Positions 30,047 through 38,692 of a DNA stretch of 38,692 bases are shown here, one piece after another. This DNA comes from Balneolaceae bacterium. Its GTDB lineage: Bacteria > Bacteroidota > Rhodothermia > Balneolales > Balneolaceae. Every line of letters begins with the position of its first letter. Within the stretch, counting starts at the first letter, position 1. Below the pieces are notes generated by a model. It worked only from the letters and a program-made list of their open reading frames with translations, made no database searches and was not told the origin of the DNA. The position numbers and the translations under genes were made by a program. The stretch lies in contig SLJB01000001.1 of the NCBI GenBank assembly GCA_007135335.1, positions 1 to 38,692 of the forward strand, written 5' to 3'.

Positions 30047-30691
30047 ATGGCTCAGATTTTTCCAAAGTGGACAAATGAAGCACCACGCCGAATACTTGTT
30101 GGTTCAATAGTTTTACTTAATGCCATTGTTTTTGCGGTATGGTATTTTGCCTCACCAGAATTTCTCGATGTGGGCTATGCTCCTGAACAGCCCGTTCCTT
30201 TCAGCCACAGTGTGCACGTTGGACAGCTTGGTATGGATTGCCAATACTGCCACACACAAGTAACCGAATCAAAATATGCCAACATTCCGGCTACTCAAAC
30301 CTGCATGAACTGTCACAGCCAAATCCAAACAGACAGTGAAAATCTTGCCTTGGTTCGCGAAAGCTGGGAGTCCGGTAAGCCCATCGAATGGATTAAAGTA
30401 CACATGCTGCCTGATTACGCATATTTTAACCACGCAGCTCACGTAAATGTTGGTGTGGGTTGTGAATCTTGCCACGGTCGTGTAGACAGAATGGAAGTAG
30501 TATACCAGGCAATGCCCTTAAGTATGGGCTGGTGTTTAGATTGCCACCGTGAACCGGAAAAACATGTAAGGCCGGTATCTGAAGTAACAACAATGGGATA
30601 TGTAGCAGATAATCAGCTTGAACTGGGACGTGAGCTTGTTGCAAAGCATAATATTAATGCTCCGACATACTGCCAGAGCTGCCACTACTGA
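30047..30691 (+). CDS. actA: ACIII subunit ActA, pentahaem cytochrome c
   Basis: First subunit of alternative complex III, the quinol:electron acceptor oxidoreductase that replaces the bc1 complex. It is 214 aa, with one N-terminal membrane helix (about 16-35) and a periplasmic domain with five CxxCH haem sites at 65-69 (CQYCH), 86-90 (CMNCH), 139-143 (CESCH), 163-167 (CLDCH) and 209-213 (CQSCH). The last site ends one residue before the C-terminus. FSHSVHVGQLGMDCQYCH and FNHAAHVNVGVGCESCH resemble NapC-like/c7-type folds. It leads the operon and is 68 nt before actB. Confidence 0.93.
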   Translation: MAQIFPKWTNEAPRRILVGSIVLLNAIVFAVWYFASPEFLDVGYAPEQPVPFSHSVHVGQLGMDCQYCHTQVTESKYANIPATQTCMNCHSQIQTDSENLALVRESWESGKPIEWIKVHMLPDYAYFNHAAHVNVGVGCESCHGRVDRMEVVYQAMPLSMGWCLDCHREPEKHVRPVSEVTTMGYVADNQLELGRELVAKHNINAPTYCQSCHY

Positions 30692-30759
30692 TTCTATCTG
30701 CAGATGACCGTGTAAATTTCTGCACGAAAACGACTTTAAAATAAAACAACCGCCAAGAA

Positions 30760-33700
30760 ATGAGTGATCAGTCGAATCAAACTACTTACTGGAAAAGCTT
30801 AAATGAGCTCGCTCAAAATGAAGAGTATAAAAAATATTCTGAGCGTGAGTTTCCCGAAAATGCTACAGAGCTGACCGACCAGGTATCCAGAAGAAGCTTT
30901 CTCCGGGTAATGGGTGCATCTATTGCGCTTGCAGGATTTGCATCGTGCCGAAAACCTGTTCAAAAAATCCTTCCATACTCCAGGCAGCCTGAGAATTTGG
31001 TTCTTGGAGAGCCTCTGTTCTACGCAACAAGCATGCCTTTTCAGGATAGTGTTACAGGGCTACTCATAACCAATAATGAAGGACGTCCTTCGAAAATTGA
31101 AGGAAATCCTGATCATCCCTCAAGCGCAGGCCGAACAAATATTTACCACCAGGCAAGTGTACTTGGCTTATACGATCCTGACCGCTCAAGATCACCGCGG
31201 CAAAATGGTGAGAATGTAACTAAAGAGGAATTTTATTCCTTTATTCAGACTCATTTTTCTGACAGGGACCGAAATATACTCTTTATCGATGAGGCAACAT
31301 CTTCACCCACATACCATAGAGTAAAAGATCAGATTCTGGATACTTTTGGCAATGCTCAGTGGGTTACTTATGAGCCGTTTTCTGACAACAATGCAATTGA
31401 AGGTACTCAAATTGCTTTTGGCCAGCGGCTTCGCACAGTAAATCACTTTGATCAGGCAGATGTTGTACTTGCCCTCGATGATGATTTCATGAACCCGCAC
31501 TCCGGCAAAAACAGTGTTGAGAGTGCTGTTAAAATTACATCAAGGCGGAAAGTAGAATCCACGGATGATTCTATGTCACGCGTTTATAGTGTTGAGAATG
31601 CCTTTACAAATACCGGTTCATATGCAGATCACAGACTGAGATTGAAATCCTCTCAGATTGCACCATTTGCTTTTGCTCTGGCTGCTAAACTTTCTGAATC
31701 TGTATCCGGCCTCAATGCTTTCAGTGGTGTATCAAACAATTTTTCAACTCATGCATGGATCGAAACACTTGCTGATGACCTGTTAAATTCTCAGGGCAGC
31801 TCAATCATAACCTTGGGAGCAGAACATACACCTGAAGCTCATGCTGCTGTTGCTGCAATGAATACTGCATTAGGAAACAGCGGAAATACGGTAACCTACC
31901 ATTCATTACCATATCGTGAAAACAGAGATGAAAACGAGGCTTTTGTAAACGCTATAAACGAACTTAAAGCCGGAGCTTTCGATACCGTTGTACTGGTTGG
32001 CGGTAATATCGCTTACAATGCCCCTGCGGATCTGGATTTGGTTCAGGCACTCGGCAATGCTGATACTGTAATTCACCTGGCAGATTATTACGATGAAACA
32101 TCGCGGGTGAGCAACTGGCATGTAAACCGTGCACATTATCTGGAAGCATGGGGGGACGGACTCTCATTCACCGGACAACGATCTATCATTCAGCCTCAAA
32201 TTCTACCACTTTTTGACGGGCTCAGTGAAATTGAATTTATAAATACACTTCTTACAGGTGAAGAAAGTACCGGATATGATCTGGTTCAGGAAACCTGGAA
32301 CACTGTATTAACATCCGATTTTACCCGTCAATGGGAAGAAGTACTTCATGATGGAGTAGATTCAGACAGCGAATTTGCTTCTGCTGATGTCTCACTTTCC
32401 GGAAATTTTGGATCGGCGATACAAAATGCACTTTCACAGCAAGCCATTGATGGAATTGAAATTGCCATCAAGCCTGATGTTCGCCTTTTTGATGGGCGAT
32501 TTGCCAATATTGGCTGGCTGCAGGAACTTCCTGAGCCCATGACAAAAATTACATGGGATAATGTTGCATTAATGAGTGCAGCTACCGCAGAAAAAATTGG
32601 AATTGATCCGAAACGAAGCTTCAAAAATAACGATGTTCCGAAAGTAAGAATTTCAGCCGGTGGTACAACTATTGAAATAGCAGCCTGGGTAGAACCGGGA
32701 CACGCCGATGATTCAATTACACTTACCGTTGGTTATGGCCGTGAAAATGTAGGCCGAGTTGCCGATGGGGTGGGTGTTGATACGTATCCGCTCCGAACTA
32801 CCGATAATATGTTTATCCGGGCTGCAACTGTAGAGCCAACAGGTACAACTTACGAAATAGCCTCTGTTCAGGATCACCACACTCTTGAAGGGCGTGATAT
32901 GATTCGAACTGCCACTCTGGATCAGTACAAAGAAACTCCGGACTTTGCTTCCTTTGCAAATTTTCATGGATTTGAAGTACCCGGCCTCAAAGAAGCTGAA
33001 GTTCTCGGCACAGCTGAACAAGGACCCATTTCATTGTTTACAGAACAATATGGGCCTGAACATCAGCCACAATGGGGAATGACCATCGACCTGAACTCAT
33101 GTTTTGGCTGTGGAGTGTGTACCATTGCCTGTCAGGCAGAAAATAACATCCCTGTTATCGGAAAGCGCGAAGTTGGCAGGAGAAGAGCCATGCACTGGAT
33201 CAGAACGGATCGCTATTATGAAGGCGATCCAGACAATCCAACAGCATATCACCAGCCCGTTCCCTGTATGCATTGCGAACTTGCCCCTTGCGAGCAGGTT
33301 TGCCCGGTTGCTGCAACCACTCACAGTGAAGATGGCATCAATCAGATGACATACAACAGGTGCATCGGTACAAGATATTGCGCTAACAACTGTCCGTTCA
33401 AAGTTAGAAGATTCAACTTCTTCAACTACACAAAAGAATATTTAACCACAGGCGACGATCCCGAGATCATACAAATGGCTATGAATCCGGAAGTTACCGT
33501 CCGTTTCCGTGGTGTTATCGAGAAGTGCACGTACTGTGTGCAGAGAGTTAACCGCGGTAAAATCAAATCAAAGATTGCTACCGGTTCAAGAAAGCCTGAA
33601 GATGGTGCAGTGAAGACAGCCTGCCAGCAGGCATGCCCGGCCAATGCAATCTCATTTGGTGATTTGACCGATAACAACAGTGAAGTCTCAAGAAATAAGC

Positions 33701-33798
33701 GTAACGACAGAAATTATGTAATGCTCGAAGAGATGAATGTTCGTCCAAGAACATCGTATCTGGCAAAACTAACTAATAAAAACCCTGAATTAGCATAA
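30760..33798 (+). CDS. actB: ACIII subunit ActB, molybdopterin-like plus iron-sulfur protein
   Basis: A 1012-aa periplasmic electron-transfer subunit. A Tat motif SRRSFLR (43-49) is followed by a hydrophobic stretch and lipobox-like GFASC (Cys63), so it is probably exported folded and lipid-anchored. Residues about 70-750 form a divergent molybdopterin-oxidoreductase-like domain; in ACIII this lacks a molybdenum centre. The C-terminal part (about 770-1012) holds the iron-sulfur clusters: CFGCGVCTIAC (C781, C784, C787, C791), CMHCELAPCEQVCPV (from C836), CIGTRYCANNCPF and CTYCVQR with CQQACPANAISF. That is enough Cys for three 4Fe-4S clusters plus a 3Fe-4S, as in known ActB. Electrons pass from the membrane quinol subunits to ActA/ActE. 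Confidence 0.95.
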   Translation: MSDQSNQTTYWKSLNELAQNEEYKKYSEREFPENATELTDQVSRRSFLRVMGASIALAGFASCRKPVQKILPYSRQPENLVLGEPLFYATSMPFQDSVTGLLITNNEGRPSKIEGNPDHPSSAGRTNIYHQASVLGLYDPDRSRSPRQNGENVTKEEFYSFIQTHFSDRDRNILFIDEATSSPTYHRVKDQILDTFGNAQWVTYEPFSDNNAIEGTQIAFGQRLRTVNHFDQADVVLALDDDFMNPHSGKNSVESAVKITSRRKVESTDDSMSRVYSVENAFTNTGSYADHRLRLKSSQIAPFAFALAAKLSESVSGLNAFSGVSNNFSTHAWIETLADDLLNSQGSSIITLGAEHTPEAHAAVAAMNTALGNSGNTVTYHSLPYRENRDENEAFVNAINELKAGAFDTVVLVGGNIAYNAPADLDLVQALGNADTVIHLADYYDETSRVSNWHVNRAHYLEAWGDGLSFTGQRSIIQPQILPLFDGLSEIEFINTLLTGEESTGYDLVQETWNTVLTSDFTRQWEEVLHDGVDSDSEFASADVSLSGNFGSAIQNALSQQAIDGIEIAIKPDVRLFDGRFANIGWLQELPEPMTKITWDNVALMSAATAEKIGIDPKRSFKNNDVPKVRISAGGTTIEIAAWVEPGHADDSITLTVGYGRENVGRVADGVGVDTYPLRTTDNMFIRAATVEPTGTTYEIASVQDHHTLEGRDMIRTATLDQYKETPDFASFANFHGFEVPGLKEAEVLGTAEQGPISLFTEQYGPEHQPQWGMTIDLNSCFGCGVCTIACQAENNIPVIGKREVGRRRAMHWIRTDRYYEGDPDNPTAYHQPVPCMHCELAPCEQVCPVAATTHSEDGINQMTYNRCIGTRYCANNCPFKVRRFNFFNYTKEYLTTGDDPEIIQMAMNPEVTVRFRGVIEKCTYCVQRVNRGKIKSKIATGSRKPEDGAVKTACQQACPANAISFGDLTDNNSEVSRNKRNDRNYVMLEEMNVRPRTSYLAKLTNKNPELA

Positions 33799-33832
33799 TT
33801 CATAAAGGATATATAATCGCAACGATCTGAAC

Positions 33833-35260
33833 ATGAGTAAAACGTACGAATACGTTCCGGAGCCCGCTCTTGTAAAGGGTAATCACGACTTCAAGGATAT
33901 TACGGCAATGGTTACAGATATTAATCTGAGACCAACGCCCAAAGCATGGTACATTGCTTTTGGAATATCGAATTTGTTATTACTTCTTCTGCTGGTATCC
34001 ATAGCCTATCTTTTTTGGGAAGGAACAGGTATCTGGGGATTGAATCAGCCCGTAGGTTGGGGCTGGGCCATCATTAATTTTGTTTGGTGGGTTGGTATTG
34101 GCCATGCCGGTACTTTGATCTCCGCGATTCTTTTCCTCTTCCGGCAGGGATGGCGAACAGCCATTAACCGGTTTGCCGAGGCTATGACCATCTTCGCTGT
34201 GATGTGTGCGGGTATCTTCCCAGCTATCCACGTTGGACGTATCTGGGTGATTTACTGGGTATTCCCTATCCCGAATCAGATGGCTATGTGGCCAAACTTC
34301 AACAGTCCGCTCTTGTGGGATGTGTTCGCTGTATCCACCTATTTCACGGTTTCTTTATTATTCTGGTATGTTGGATTGGTACCTGATTTTGCTACGCTAC
34401 GAGACAGAATTAAGAGCAAATTTGGGAAACTATTATACGGTACTCTTGCCCTGGGCTGGAGAGGCAGTAACCGGCACTGGTGGAATTATGAAAAATCGTA
34501 CATGATTCTTGCCGGCCTTGCAACTCCGCTTGTACTCTCTGTACACACAATTGTATCCTTCGACTTTGCCGTTTCTATTATTCCCGGATGGCACACAACT
34601 ATTTTCCCGCCCTATTTTGTGGCCGGTGCTGTGTTCTCCGGATTCGCCATGGTACTGACACTCATGATTATCTGTAGAAAGATTTATAAACTCGAAGATA
34701 TCATGACAGTAGACCATATCGAGAAGATGAACATCATTATTCTTGTTACAGGTTCTATGGTAGGCTTTGCCTATGCAATGGAGTTCTTTATTGCATGGTA
34801 CGGCGGCGTTGAATATGAAAAAGCCATCTTTATTATACGTGCCACAGGTCCTTATGCCTGGGCGTATTGGATTATGGTAACCTGTAATGTGTTATCACCA
34901 CAGTTCTTCTGGTCTAAGAAATTACGGCGAAGCGTAGGCTTCACCTTCTTTATTTCGATAGTTGTGAACATAGGCATGTGGTTTGAGCGATTTGTAATTG
35001 CAGTGACCTCACTTTCTACCGACTTTTTGCCATCATCTTGGGGTTACTACTCTCCCACTTTTTGGGATGTGATAACCTACATCGGCACATTCGGTTTGTT
35101 CTTCACTTTCTTCCTGCTCTTCCTTCGGTTCCTCCCGATGGTTGCTGTTGCAGAGCTGAAAGGTGTTATGCCACAAGCTGATCCTCACAATTATGACGAC
35201 AATGGCAATTACGTTCCGCCCAAAGTTGTAATACCGGAACCAAATCGTAAATCTGTTTAA
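33833..35260 (+). CDS. actC: ACIII subunit ActC, NrfD-like quinol-binding membrane protein
   Basis: A 475-aa NrfD/PsrC-type integral membrane subunit with about ten helices. It lies 34 nt after actB. Typical residues include [29 protein letters not shown] (near 85-113), [49 protein letters not shown] (near 125-173) and [38 protein letters not shown]. Conserved His, Asp and Arg residues in these helices line the quinol site and proposed proton half-channel of ACIII. ActC contacts the ActB iron-sulfur domain. Confidence 0.95.
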
Positions 35261-35270
35261 CTATTTTCCG

Positions 35271-35822
35271 ATGAAAAAAGAAACTTCAGATAACAAACTT
35301 TACGGTATACTTGCCGAATTCAGAAACCCGAAAGAGTTGATTGACGCTGCAAAGGTCATTAACGACAATGGTTATCGGAATTACGACACTTTCAGTCCGT
35401 TCCCCATACACGGAATGGACAGAGCCATGAGCCTCAAAAAATCAAAACTCGGCTGGATTGTTGCCGGGCACGGCCTGGCAGGCTTAACCGGTGCCTTTGC
35501 AATGATCTATTATATGATGGTGTATGACTATCCGCTTAACATCAGCGGTAAATCACTGATGAATATTCCGGCGTGGATTCCTGTGATATTTGAATTAACC
35601 GTTCTGCTTTCAGCTTTTGGGGCGGTTTTCGGTATGTTCTTTTTAAATGGACTTCCAAAATTGAATCATCCGTTATTCAATTCAGAAAATTTCAAAAAAG
35701 CAACTGATGATGGTTTCTTTGTCTGTATAGAAACGGAAGATCCGCAGTTTGATGACGAAAAAGTGCACCAGCTACTGTCAGGAGTCGGTGCCACAAATAT
35801 TGAAAAGATATTCGATGAGTAA
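35271..35822 (+). CDS. actD: ACIII subunit ActD (DUF3341)
   Basis: A 183-aa protein with a cytoplasmic ferredoxin-like N-terminus (LYGILAEFRNPKELIDAAKVINDNGYRNYDTFSPFPIHGMD), two membrane helices (about 62-84 and 98-125) and a cytoplasmic C-terminal segment (FFVCIETEDPQFDDEKV). This is the DUF3341 layout of ActD. It starts 10 nt after actC, so translation is probably coupled. It carries no cofactor and has a structural role in the complex. Confidence 0.94.
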   Translation: MKKETSDNKLYGILAEFRNPKELIDAAKVINDNGYRNYDTFSPFPIHGMDRAMSLKKSKLGWIVAGHGLAGLTGAFAMIYYMMVYDYPLNISGKSLMNIPAWIPVIFELTVLLSAFGAVFGMFFLNGLPKLNHPLFNSENFKKATDDGFFVCIETEDPQFDDEKVHQLLSGVGATNIEKIFDE

Positions 35823-35861
35823 TTCATCACTAAACTTAATTTCTCAAGATCGATTCAACGT

Positions 35862-36842
35862 ATGAAATTGGCCTTAAAACTATTAGCGCTTCTGTTGGTT
35901 TCTGTTGTGATGATGTCATGCAGGGGCCAGAAAACGGATAAACCACCTATTCGGCATCATTTTAACATGAATTTCCAGGAGAGGTTTAACGCCCAGCAGG
36001 AAAACCCATTCTTTGAAGATGGCATGGCCATGAGAATGCCGGTTGAAGGTACTGTTGCCAGAGGCAACCTCCGCCATGACACTGTTCTTTTTGAAGGTGT
36101 TGATGATACAGGTAATTATGTTGACGAAATACCGTTTGATCTCACTCGTGATTTTCTGTACAGAGGGAAAGAACGGTATGATATTTACTGCCAGATGTGT
36201 CACGGAGGTACCGGTGACGGACAAGGTGTAATTATGACCGGTGGATACGGATATGTGCCTGCCCCCACCTTCCACAGTGAATCTAGCAGAAACATGCCTG
36301 AAGGTGAAATTTATTCCGCCATAGCTAATGGCATCCGAAATATGCCCGCCTATGCCTCACAAATTAAAGTTGAAGACAGATGGGCAATCGTAGCTTATGT
36401 GCGTGCTCTTCAGGCGAGCCAGAATGTGCGGGAAATAGAGATGGATCGCTATGATGTTGACCTCGCTGAACTGAGAGATATTTATGAAGCAGAACAGGCA
36501 CGACTTGAAGCATTGGCCGCAACGAGAGCTGCAGGTGCAAGCGAAGAAGTTTCTGTTGAAAGAGGAGAGCAACAATTTGTTAGAAATGCCTGCCAGGCAT
36601 GCCATTCTGTGGATGGAAGAGATGGTGTAGGGCCAACATTAGCAGGACTCTACGGTTCAGAAAGAAATTTTACAGATGGTACATCAGCTATTGCTGATGA
36701 AGACTACTTGATTGAATCAATTCTATATCCATCAGCAAAAGTTGTAGAGGGGTATGAGGATGCAATGCAACCTTATGATTATCTCTCGGAAAGTGAGATT
36801 CAATCGCTGGTTGAGTTTATCAGATCATTATCAGACGAATAA
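35862..36842 (+). CDS. actE: ACIII subunit ActE, fused two-domain cytochrome c lipoprotein
   Basis: A 326-aa periplasmic lipoprotein (lipobox VMMSC, Cys20). The first cytochrome domain is the usual ActE: PVEGTVARG, then CQMCHGGTGDG (haem site 110-114) and RNMPAYA (likely axial Met). A charged, probably helical linker (about 205-238) joins it to a second c-type domain with CQACHSVDG (244-248) and EDAMQPYDYLSESEIQSLVEF, which resembles the cytochrome c domain fused to caa3 oxidase subunit II. ActE is usually a single-haem protein of about 200 residues, so this is a fusion. The second haem may pass electrons to the next oxidase. It lies 39 nt after actD and 24 nt before actF. Confidence 0.93.
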   Translation: MKLALKLLALLLVSVVMMSCRGQKTDKPPIRHHFNMNFQERFNAQQENPFFEDGMAMRMPVEGTVARGNLRHDTVLFEGVDDTGNYVDEIPFDLTRDFLYRGKERYDIYCQMCHGGTGDGQGVIMTGGYGYVPAPTFHSESSRNMPEGEIYSAIANGIRNMPAYASQIKVEDRWAIVAYVRALQASQNVREIEMDRYDVDLAELRDIYEAEQARLEALAATRAAGASEEVSVERGEQQFVRNACQACHSVDGRDGVGPTLAGLYGSERNFTDGTSAIADEDYLIESILYPSAKVVEGYEDAMQPYDYLSESEIQSLVEFIRSLSDE

Positions 36843-36866: not shown

Positions 36867-38066
36867 ATGGCTTCAACAAGTCCCAAACTAACAGATTCAG
36901 TTCAATTTCCATCTAACCTTGATGTTGCGAAAACATTCTATGGATTCGGTGTAGTTGGATTAATTGCGAGTTTTGTTGGTTTCTTCCTCAATTCAGAGCA
37001 GTTCTTCTTCTCTTATTTAACCAGCTTTACATTCTTCACGAGTATATCACTGGCGTCTCTCATACTGGTAATGATTCATCACATAACCAAATCATCATGG
37101 GGAACCGTTATCAGAAGAATTCCGGAAGCCTTCATGTCGAACCTCGGTATCTGGGCTATCTTTATGATTCCGGTACTATTAGGAATGAGCAGTCTCTACT
37201 CCTGGACAAACACAGCCTACGTAGCAGATGATCCGATCATGCTTGGTAAAGTTCCGTATTTGAACACACCCTTTTTTGTAATCCGACAGTTCATCTATTT
37301 CGCAATCTGGGGTTATTTGGGGCATAGATTGTACAAAGTTTCTGTTGATATGGATGAAACTAATGATTGGGGACTTACAAAAGTCTTACAAAAACTGAGT
37401 GCACCGGGAATTTTAATTTTCTCCCTCACTGTTGCATTTGCAAGTTTCGACTGGCTTATGTCGCTCGATGCACACTGGTTCTCAACCATGTTTGGTGTTT
37501 ATTTCTTCGCCATGAGCTTTCAGGCACTTTTTCCGATTCTTATTCTGATGATTCTCTGGTTCAGAAAAAAAGGCATTCTTGAAAATACAATTGGAAAAGC
37601 CCATATCTATGATTTGGGTGCCTGGTTTTTTGGCTTTACTGTGTTCTATGCATATATAGCATTCAGCCAGTTTTTGCTAATCTATTATGCCAATATTCCG
37701 GAAGAAACTCTCTGGTTCTATCACAGACTTGAAGGCAGCTGGTCATTTGTAACTTACTCTTTACTGATTTGCCGATTTATTATTCCATTTATACTGCTTC
37801 TGAACAGAGACACAAAACACAATAATAAACTGCTTGTGTTCACCTCGGTTCTGGTTATTTTTATGCATATTGTAGAACTGCACTGGATTGTAATGCCAAT
37901 ACTCAGCCATGACGGAGTTTCAATCAGCTGGCTTGATTTCGCAACATTTATAGGTCTTGGCGGTATTTTTATGGGTCTCTTCTTCCAGAAATTCAGTAAG
38001 CACAATATGGTGCCTGTAAACGATCCGAAATTGGCTGAATCACTCAGCAAACATTACCATCAATAA
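36867..38066 (+). CDS. actF: ACIII subunit ActF, NrfD-like membrane protein
   Basis: A 399-aa integral membrane protein with about ten helices, a divergent duplicate of ActC. Residues resembling known ActF include VMIHHITKSSWGTVIRRIPEAFMSNLGIWAIFMIP (near 69-103), YLNTPFFVIRQFIYFAIWG and FASFDWLMSLDAHWFSTMFGVYFFAMSFQ. The C-terminal helices include VELHWIVMPILSHDG. In ACIII, ActF supplies a second transmembrane proton-channel-like bundle and lacks the quinol site of ActC. The stop is followed 24 nt later by the helix-turn-helix/membrane gene. Confidence 0.93.
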   Translation: MASTSPKLTDSVQFPSNLDVAKTFYGFGVVGLIASFVGFFLNSEQFFFSYLTSFTFFTSISLASLILVMIHHITKSSWGTVIRRIPEAFMSNLGIWAIFMIPVLLGMSSLYSWTNTAYVADDPIMLGKVPYLNTPFFVIRQFIYFAIWGYLGHRLYKVSVDMDETNDWGLTKVLQKLSAPGILIFSLTVAFASFDWLMSLDAHWFSTMFGVYFFAMSFQALFPILILMILWFRKKGILENTIGKAHIYDLGAWFFGFTVFYAYIAFSQFLLIYYANIPEETLWFYHRLEGSWSFVTYSLLICRFIIPFILLLNRDTKHNNKLLVFTSVLVIFMHIVELHWIVMPILSHDGVSISWLDFATFIGLGGIFMGLFFQKFSKHNMVPVNDPKLAESLSKHYHQ

Positions 38067-38090: not shown

Positions 38091-38591
38091 ATGAGTAAAA
38101 AGAAAACATTTACCGAAGAAGAAAAAGCTGCTATTGCAAAACAGGCTGCTTCAGGTGGTGATCAAGACCTGAATGAGTTAGCAGAAGAGCATGGTATTAC
38201 GATCGAACAAATTAAACTTTGGATACGCGAAAGTAATGCTGCTGACGTTGACTATGCGGAAGATGAAGTATCTTTAGAGGCTACCGATGACTTTGAAAAA
38301 TCAGTAACTTATGGCGCCACATTCGATAAGCTGAATTACAACAGGTTAGTCTTTTGGTCAGCTTTCGGTACAATTACCATCGTTCTATTTATCGTGGCTA
38401 TCATATATATGCACGATTATACCAGAACTTCTGTCTCACAGGATAGATCTGACCAAAGTTTATTCTACAATATTGAAGAAATTCAGCAGCGTGATCGTGT
38501 TATACTTGATTCCTTTGGTGTGGTTGATCCCGAAGAAGGTATTTACAGGATTCCAATTGACAGTGCTATCACGAATATTGCAACCGATTAG
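38091..38591 (+). CDS. Single-pass membrane protein with helix-turn-helix-like N-terminus
   Basis: A 166-aa protein I do not recognise as a named family. Start ATG at 38091 is preferred over an in-frame TTG at 38067. Residues about 8-47 look like a transposase/sigma-factor-type helix-turn-helix: two helices with GITIEQIKLWIRE as the recognition-like helix. An acidic stretch follows (about 52-70), then one membrane helix (about 86-107, LVFWSAFGTITIVLFIVAIIY), then a 59-residue outside part rich in Asp, Glu, Arg and Gln. Predicted topology is N-terminus in. Its position directly after actF is where a small one-helix subunit (ActG) occurs in some ACIII clusters, so it may be a subunit that gained or retained a DNA-binding-like domain. 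Confidence 0.8.
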   Translation: MSKKKTFTEEEKAAIAKQAASGGDQDLNELAEEHGITIEQIKLWIRESNAADVDYAEDEVSLEATDDFEKSVTYGATFDKLNYNRLVFWSAFGTITIVLFIVAIIYMHDYTRTSVSQDRSDQSLFYNIEEIQQRDRVILDSFGVVDPEEGIYRIPIDSAITNIATD

Positions 38592-38606: not shown

Positions 38607-38692
38607 ATGAAACACACACTGAAGGCAATAGCAGCGATTTCAGTGTTTTTCCTGTTCAATACGGCAAATGCTCAGTTAAATCAAAATCGTCC
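38607..38692 (+). CDS. Start of an exported protein, truncated at the window edge
   Basis: ATG at 38607 opens a frame with a signal peptide (MKHTLKAIAAISVFFLFN, then cleavage after ANA) and a mature N-terminus QLNQNR before the window ends. It begins 15 nt after the previous stop, so it continues the ACIII operon. Genes here in other clusters include the copper chaperone SCO1/SenC or oxidase subunit II, but 28 codons do not decide between them. Confidence 0.7.
   Translation, partial: MKHTLKAIAAISVFFLFNTANAQLNQNR

Follow-up and report, generated by a model that had tools for sequence, protein, structure and literature searches.

A putative transposase-derived helix-turn-helix domain at the N-terminus of ActG, a subunit of alternative complex III, in Balneolaceae

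Gene content of the locus

The window analysed is a stretch of 38,692 nt from a Balneolaceae bacterium (contig SLJB01000001.1, positions 1 to 38,692), which contains an operon for alternative complex III (ACIII). Between actF and a gene of the SCO1 family lies a short gene encoding a protein of 166 aa, the subject of this study. The features are as follows, with the basis of each assignment in brackets.

30047..36842, + strand: actA, actB, actC, actD and actE of the ACIII operon (Pfam)
36867..38066, + strand: actF, 399 aa (position and relatives at the equivalent place)
38091..38591, + strand: actG-like gene with a helix-turn-helix (HTH), 166 aa (ORF, Pfam, synteny, core profile)
38091..38246, + strand: HTH_Tnp_1 domain, residues 1-52, helices 9-22, 24-34 and 38-50 (Pfam, AlphaFold2, fold search)
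38247..38336, + strand: acidic linker, residues 53-82, with the conserved pre-membrane motif G-x-x-x-D-x-LNY at its end (alignment)
38337..38456, + strand: single membrane helix and its continuation, residues 83-122 (model, hydropathy)
38457..38588, + strand: C-terminal tail, residues 123-166, with the signature L-x-S-F-G-V-V-D-x-x-x-G-I-Y-R-I-P-I-D-S-A (alignment; common to ActG, 8k9e_G)
38609..38692, + strand: 5' part of the SCO1 family gene, truncated where the window ends (sister copies L002, L003)

Pfam assigns ActA to Cytochrome_C7, ActB to Fer4 domains (an Fe-S protein with a TAT signal), ActC to NrfD and ActE to Cytochrome_CBB3, while ActD matches PF11821 with an E-value of 2.5e-65; actF has no Pfam match of its own. 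A gene for a DUF420 membrane protein (PF04238; 29038-29607, - strand) is divergent from actA, with a promoter region of approximately 440 bp between them. The gene boundaries in the initial annotation, 38091-38591, are borne out by the ATG at 38091, which lies 24 nt past the actF stop (38066), by the stop codon at 38589-38591, and by the neighbours on either side: the ATG at 38609, 17 nt 3' of the ORF, opens a product matching the SCO1 of the sister loci. The gene order is actF, the actG-like gene, SCO1 and coxB.

Two further copies of the gene are present in the same assembly. The locus on one contig (G000:C130, L003) is 94% identical at the DNA level over 3480 bases to that of a genome of another species (G020), as against 73% to the window, and therefore probably represents contamination of the metagenome-assembled genome; the idea of a second respiratory operon was set aside on this account. 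The other copy (G000:C52, L002; 92%) is located at the end of a contig and appears to be a strain variant.

Identity of the protein

Relatives were gathered from 59 related genomes, from the whole family (92 genomes) and from 395 genomes of the phylum. The homologues in other Balneolales families, of 110-130 aa, consist of the pre-membrane motif, the membrane helix and the tail, without an HTH. This core of membrane helix and tail lies beside actF across the whole order and much of the class, for the most part HTH-free, and the earlier remark that small one-helix subunits at this position normally lack an HTH-like fold is true of every examined lineage outside Balneolaceae.

In 125 of 127 loci the gene for the core adjoins actF, the two being separated by a small gap or overlapping slightly; one of the remaining two overlaps actF by 101 bases and the other has no actF match, such that the proposed survey of co-occurrence with actF found the two genes adjoining or overlapping in 126 of 127. 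On its other side the core gene mostly adjoins SCO1, with SCO1/coxB following it in nearly all loci, and the complete Rhodothermus-like genome L216 has the order actD-actE-actF-X-SCO1. Within the family the core is present in 84 of 92 genomes and ActD in 85, with both found in 83. When the HTH-free core profile was compared with the PDB, the only significant match was to ActG of the Roseiflexus ACIII (8k9e/8k9f/8x2j/9ilt; E = 2.7e-4), a moderate match confined to 38 C-terminal residues of ActG; the next had an E-value of 0.5. Taken together, the position of the core after actF, the profile match and the co-occurrence with ActD lead to the conclusion that, judged from its sequence, the 166-aa protein is ActG, a small one-helix accessory subunit of ACIII.

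Other searches contributed little. Neither the whole protein nor the tail alone retrieved anything useful from the PDB with phmmer, the top PDB matches of narrower profiles (PPR, dTor) were repeat or designed proteins and hence meaningless, and the Pfam family DUF7358 was set aside at a score of 21.7 against a cut-off of 27. The Foldseek matches of the full model are mostly HTH folds, which precluded a structural match to ActG.

ActG of Rhodothermus marinus has one predicted transmembrane helix, its presence in ACIII has been confirmed by mass fingerprinting, and it is the sole subunit missing from some act clusters (PMC5928083). The Balneolaceae protein resembles the known ActG (R. castenholzii 8k9e chain G; R. 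marinus) as a one-helix accessory subunit of ACIII, its membership being assigned here from sequence, in the C-terminal signature L-N-S-Y-G...I-P-I-D-x-A, and in the location of the gene 3' of actF in the Rhodothermus-like locus. It differs in bearing an HTH and an acidic linker, whereas no folded N-terminal domain of ActG is reported in the literature examined.

As the N-terminal domain taken alone is called a transposase by Pfam, the gene might be thought unrelated to ACIII, representing a stray transposase orfA or an antitoxin-like insertion into the operon. This has a negligible probability and is refuted by synteny and core homology: no transposase partner gene adjoins it, the order actF-X-SCO1 is kept in around 120 loci, and the membrane helix and tail are conserved in the proteins without an HTH.

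The acidic linker and single membrane helix described in the initial annotation are both evident from the alignment, the model and hydropathy. One hydrophobic segment is present in all 107 order-level members. In the model the membrane helix spans residues 83-122 and the tail is built of a helix, a hairpin and a second helix. Positive-inside counts in Balneolales (N>C in 64 proteins, N<C in 12) suggest a cytoplasmic N-terminus, with the tail, from this topology, presumably on the exterior side; across the wider class the same rule gives an ambiguous answer. In the genus of L124, L125, L130 and L131 the linker is histidine-rich (HGGHHHASGE) and possibly metal-binding.

The HTH domain and its origin

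Residues 1-57 match the Pfam family HTH_Tnp_1 (PF01527) with an E-value of 1.8e-6 and 28.5 bits, above the curated cut-off of 24.1, and the same model is matched by 28 of 58 relatives (E ≤ 0.1). AlphaFold2 predicts helices at 9-21/22, 24-34 and 38-47/50, both in the full protein and in the domain alone, with predicted disorder at residues 54-62 and no reliable packing of the HTH onto the rest of the protein (pTM 0.31). The fold neighbours of the domain (Foldseek, VIA-align) are headed by TnpE of Shigella (Z = 5.8), followed by IstA and CENP-B; the Foldseek E-values all exceed 0.1, as expected for a domain of only 52 residues. The Pfam score, the modelled helices and the place of the domain among HTH folds thus uphold the original description of an N-terminal HTH.

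The best NCBIfam matches of the domain are IS66 TnpA and IS3, and transposases of Balneolales match the HTHs too; the best of them (L157) matches those of the family outside the genus of the window across some 58 residues, with E-values reaching 5e-10. Hence the closest HTH relatives found here are those of IS3/IS66-type transposases, and the domain looks to have been captured from a transposase of the IS3 OrfA / IS66 TnpA type. A search of the genomes of the genus found no instance of this HTH subtype outside actG. With the N-termini of these transposases the domain shares the three-helix fold, an above-cut-off match to HTH_Tnp_1 and a conserved K, A and W; it is unlike them in being acidic where they are basic, in its fusion to a respiratory subunit and in having no transposase partner gene. 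The fixed respiratory context, with no such partner alongside, is not that of a functional IS3/IS66 transposase.

Gain, loss and constraint

Among the 107 members from Balneolales, 72 carry the HTH and 35 do not. All carriers fall within the Balneolaceae clade of a tree of actF and SCO, where they make up 72 of 84 rows (support 100), and the presence or absence of the domain requires a minimum of five changes on this tree, against a mean of 35 for shuffled labels. A single gain is preferred because the HTH domains are homologous and occupy an identical place, and five to six losses are then needed; the distribution fits such a gain in the ancestor of Balneolaceae. Two of the losses have left scars in the DNA: L120 (compared with L114) and L043 (compared with L098) retain the first 35-48 nt or so of the HTH, about a dozen codons, and then jump to the linker. 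In a Balneola-like group of close relatives (L125:1492-1670 and L128:1363-1540), the HTH codons have a DNA identity of 67-78%, while the flanks, nearby actF and what remains of actG, mostly reach 95-100%; the module has apparently been exchanged by recombination.

The N-terminus of ActG carries a different addition elsewhere. In several other families of the class (L207-L212, L214, L217, L221 and L223), an FN3-like beta domain of approximately 90-100 aa, with the pattern W..V..A..Y.LQV..D..F, occupies the position that the HTH has in Balneolaceae. No Pfam model matches it, and its best PDB match, to an FN3 consensus protein, is weak (E = 0.052). If this assignment is right, unrelated domains have been added to the N-terminus of ActG on more than one occasion, and this speaks for a site of attachment over a device dedicated to binding DNA.

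The repeated loss of the HTH, its swapping among close relatives and the unrelated extra N-terminal folds of other families would all be consistent with a neutral or near-neutral passenger, merely tolerated or aiding membrane insertion or the solubility of the N-terminus. This is nevertheless improbable, given that the dN/dS of the HTH is mostly 0.02-0.15, close to that of the core, and that K13, A20 and W45 are retained in at least 97% of members. The pooled pN/pS is 0.20 for the HTH and 0.13 for the core, and an exception to the constraint is the Balneola-like group with apparently exchanged codons. As the domain is mostly under purifying selection where it is kept, it is likely to have some function.

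Function of the HTH

The initial annotation had offered two readings, a membrane-tethered regulator and a structural subunit with an HTH serving only in protein contacts. For the former, the tail would act as a sensor for the condition of ACIII or of the periplasm, with a cytoplasmic HTH binding an operator, for instance upstream of actA. An intact HTH fold under purifying selection, a single membrane helix whose probable cytoplasmic side bears the HTH, and R/K at two helix-3 positions in the genus are compatible with this, as is the resemblance to regulators of the ToxR/CadC type in the order of HTH, linker, membrane helix and tail. In those regulators, however, the HTHs are basic and winged and the sensor domain is their own, whereas the tail of ActG is older than the HTH and part of a respiratory complex; since it is conserved in HTH-free lineages, it was not built as a sensor for the HTH. 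The occurrence of five to six HTH losses with retention of the operon, and of an FN3-like domain at the equivalent place in other lineages, also stands against a regulator.

The surface of the domain is a further difficulty. Its mean net charge is -2.0 (n = 70), compared with +3.5 for the transposase HTHs of Balneolales (n = 15), although the associated p-value of 8e-9 is only indicative, related sequences having been treated as independent. The conserved positions (K13, A17, A20, A32, I42 and W45 in alignment numbering) are of the packing type, whereas the exposed positions of the recognition helix, helix 3, are variable and 35-62% acidic. The genus of the window retains two basic residues there (I-K/R-x-W-I-R); several Balneolaceae genera have none at these positions. 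The basic, conserved DNA-reading face expected of a tethered regulator is thus not what is observed. This pattern is consistent with a scaffold that was kept while its DNA face was lost, and the HTH looks poorly suited to binding DNA.

A tethered regulator is accordingly unlikely, and DNA binding by the HTH is disfavoured. Weak or new DNA binding is conceivable because the genus keeps its two basic helix-3 residues, though the chances of it are slim. Similarly doubtful is an ActG that binds DNA through its captured HTH, either tethering ACIII to the chromosome or reporting the assembly of the respiratory chain to a promoter. Of the two original readings, the structural subunit is better supported, by the ActG core, by an HTH that is restricted to one family and repeatedly lost, and by the acidic, variable DNA face. 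A domain that is poorly suited to DNA and has been lost in several lineages is more likely to be a structural appendage than a regulatory switch.

The probable explanation is that the protein is an ActG whose HTH was captured once from a transposase and now serves as a contact module in the cytoplasm that no longer reads DNA. An HTH of the IS3 OrfA / IS66 TnpA type would have been fused once to the N-terminus of an existing ActG in the ancestor of Balneolaceae, on what is likely to be the cytoplasmic face of the membrane, and would since have ceased to read DNA. The acidic, variable DNA face together with a probably cytoplasmic N-terminus favours a small module making contacts at the cytoplasmic face of ACIII or of its oxidase supercomplex, where it may serve packing, assembly or stability; protein-protein contact is the most likely role.

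No published account of an HTH-bearing ActG was found in the part of the open literature that was searched. The gene should not be annotated as a transposase or a regulator. The locus appears to record a capture of a transposase HTH by a core respiratory complex that can be traced from a single gain, through a period of mostly purifying selection, to several losses with scars in the DNA. It also suggests that the N-terminus of ActG is a docking place for lineage-specific domains, the HTH in one case and the FN3-like domain in another, and this variety bears on the role of ActG, the least understood subunit of ACIII.
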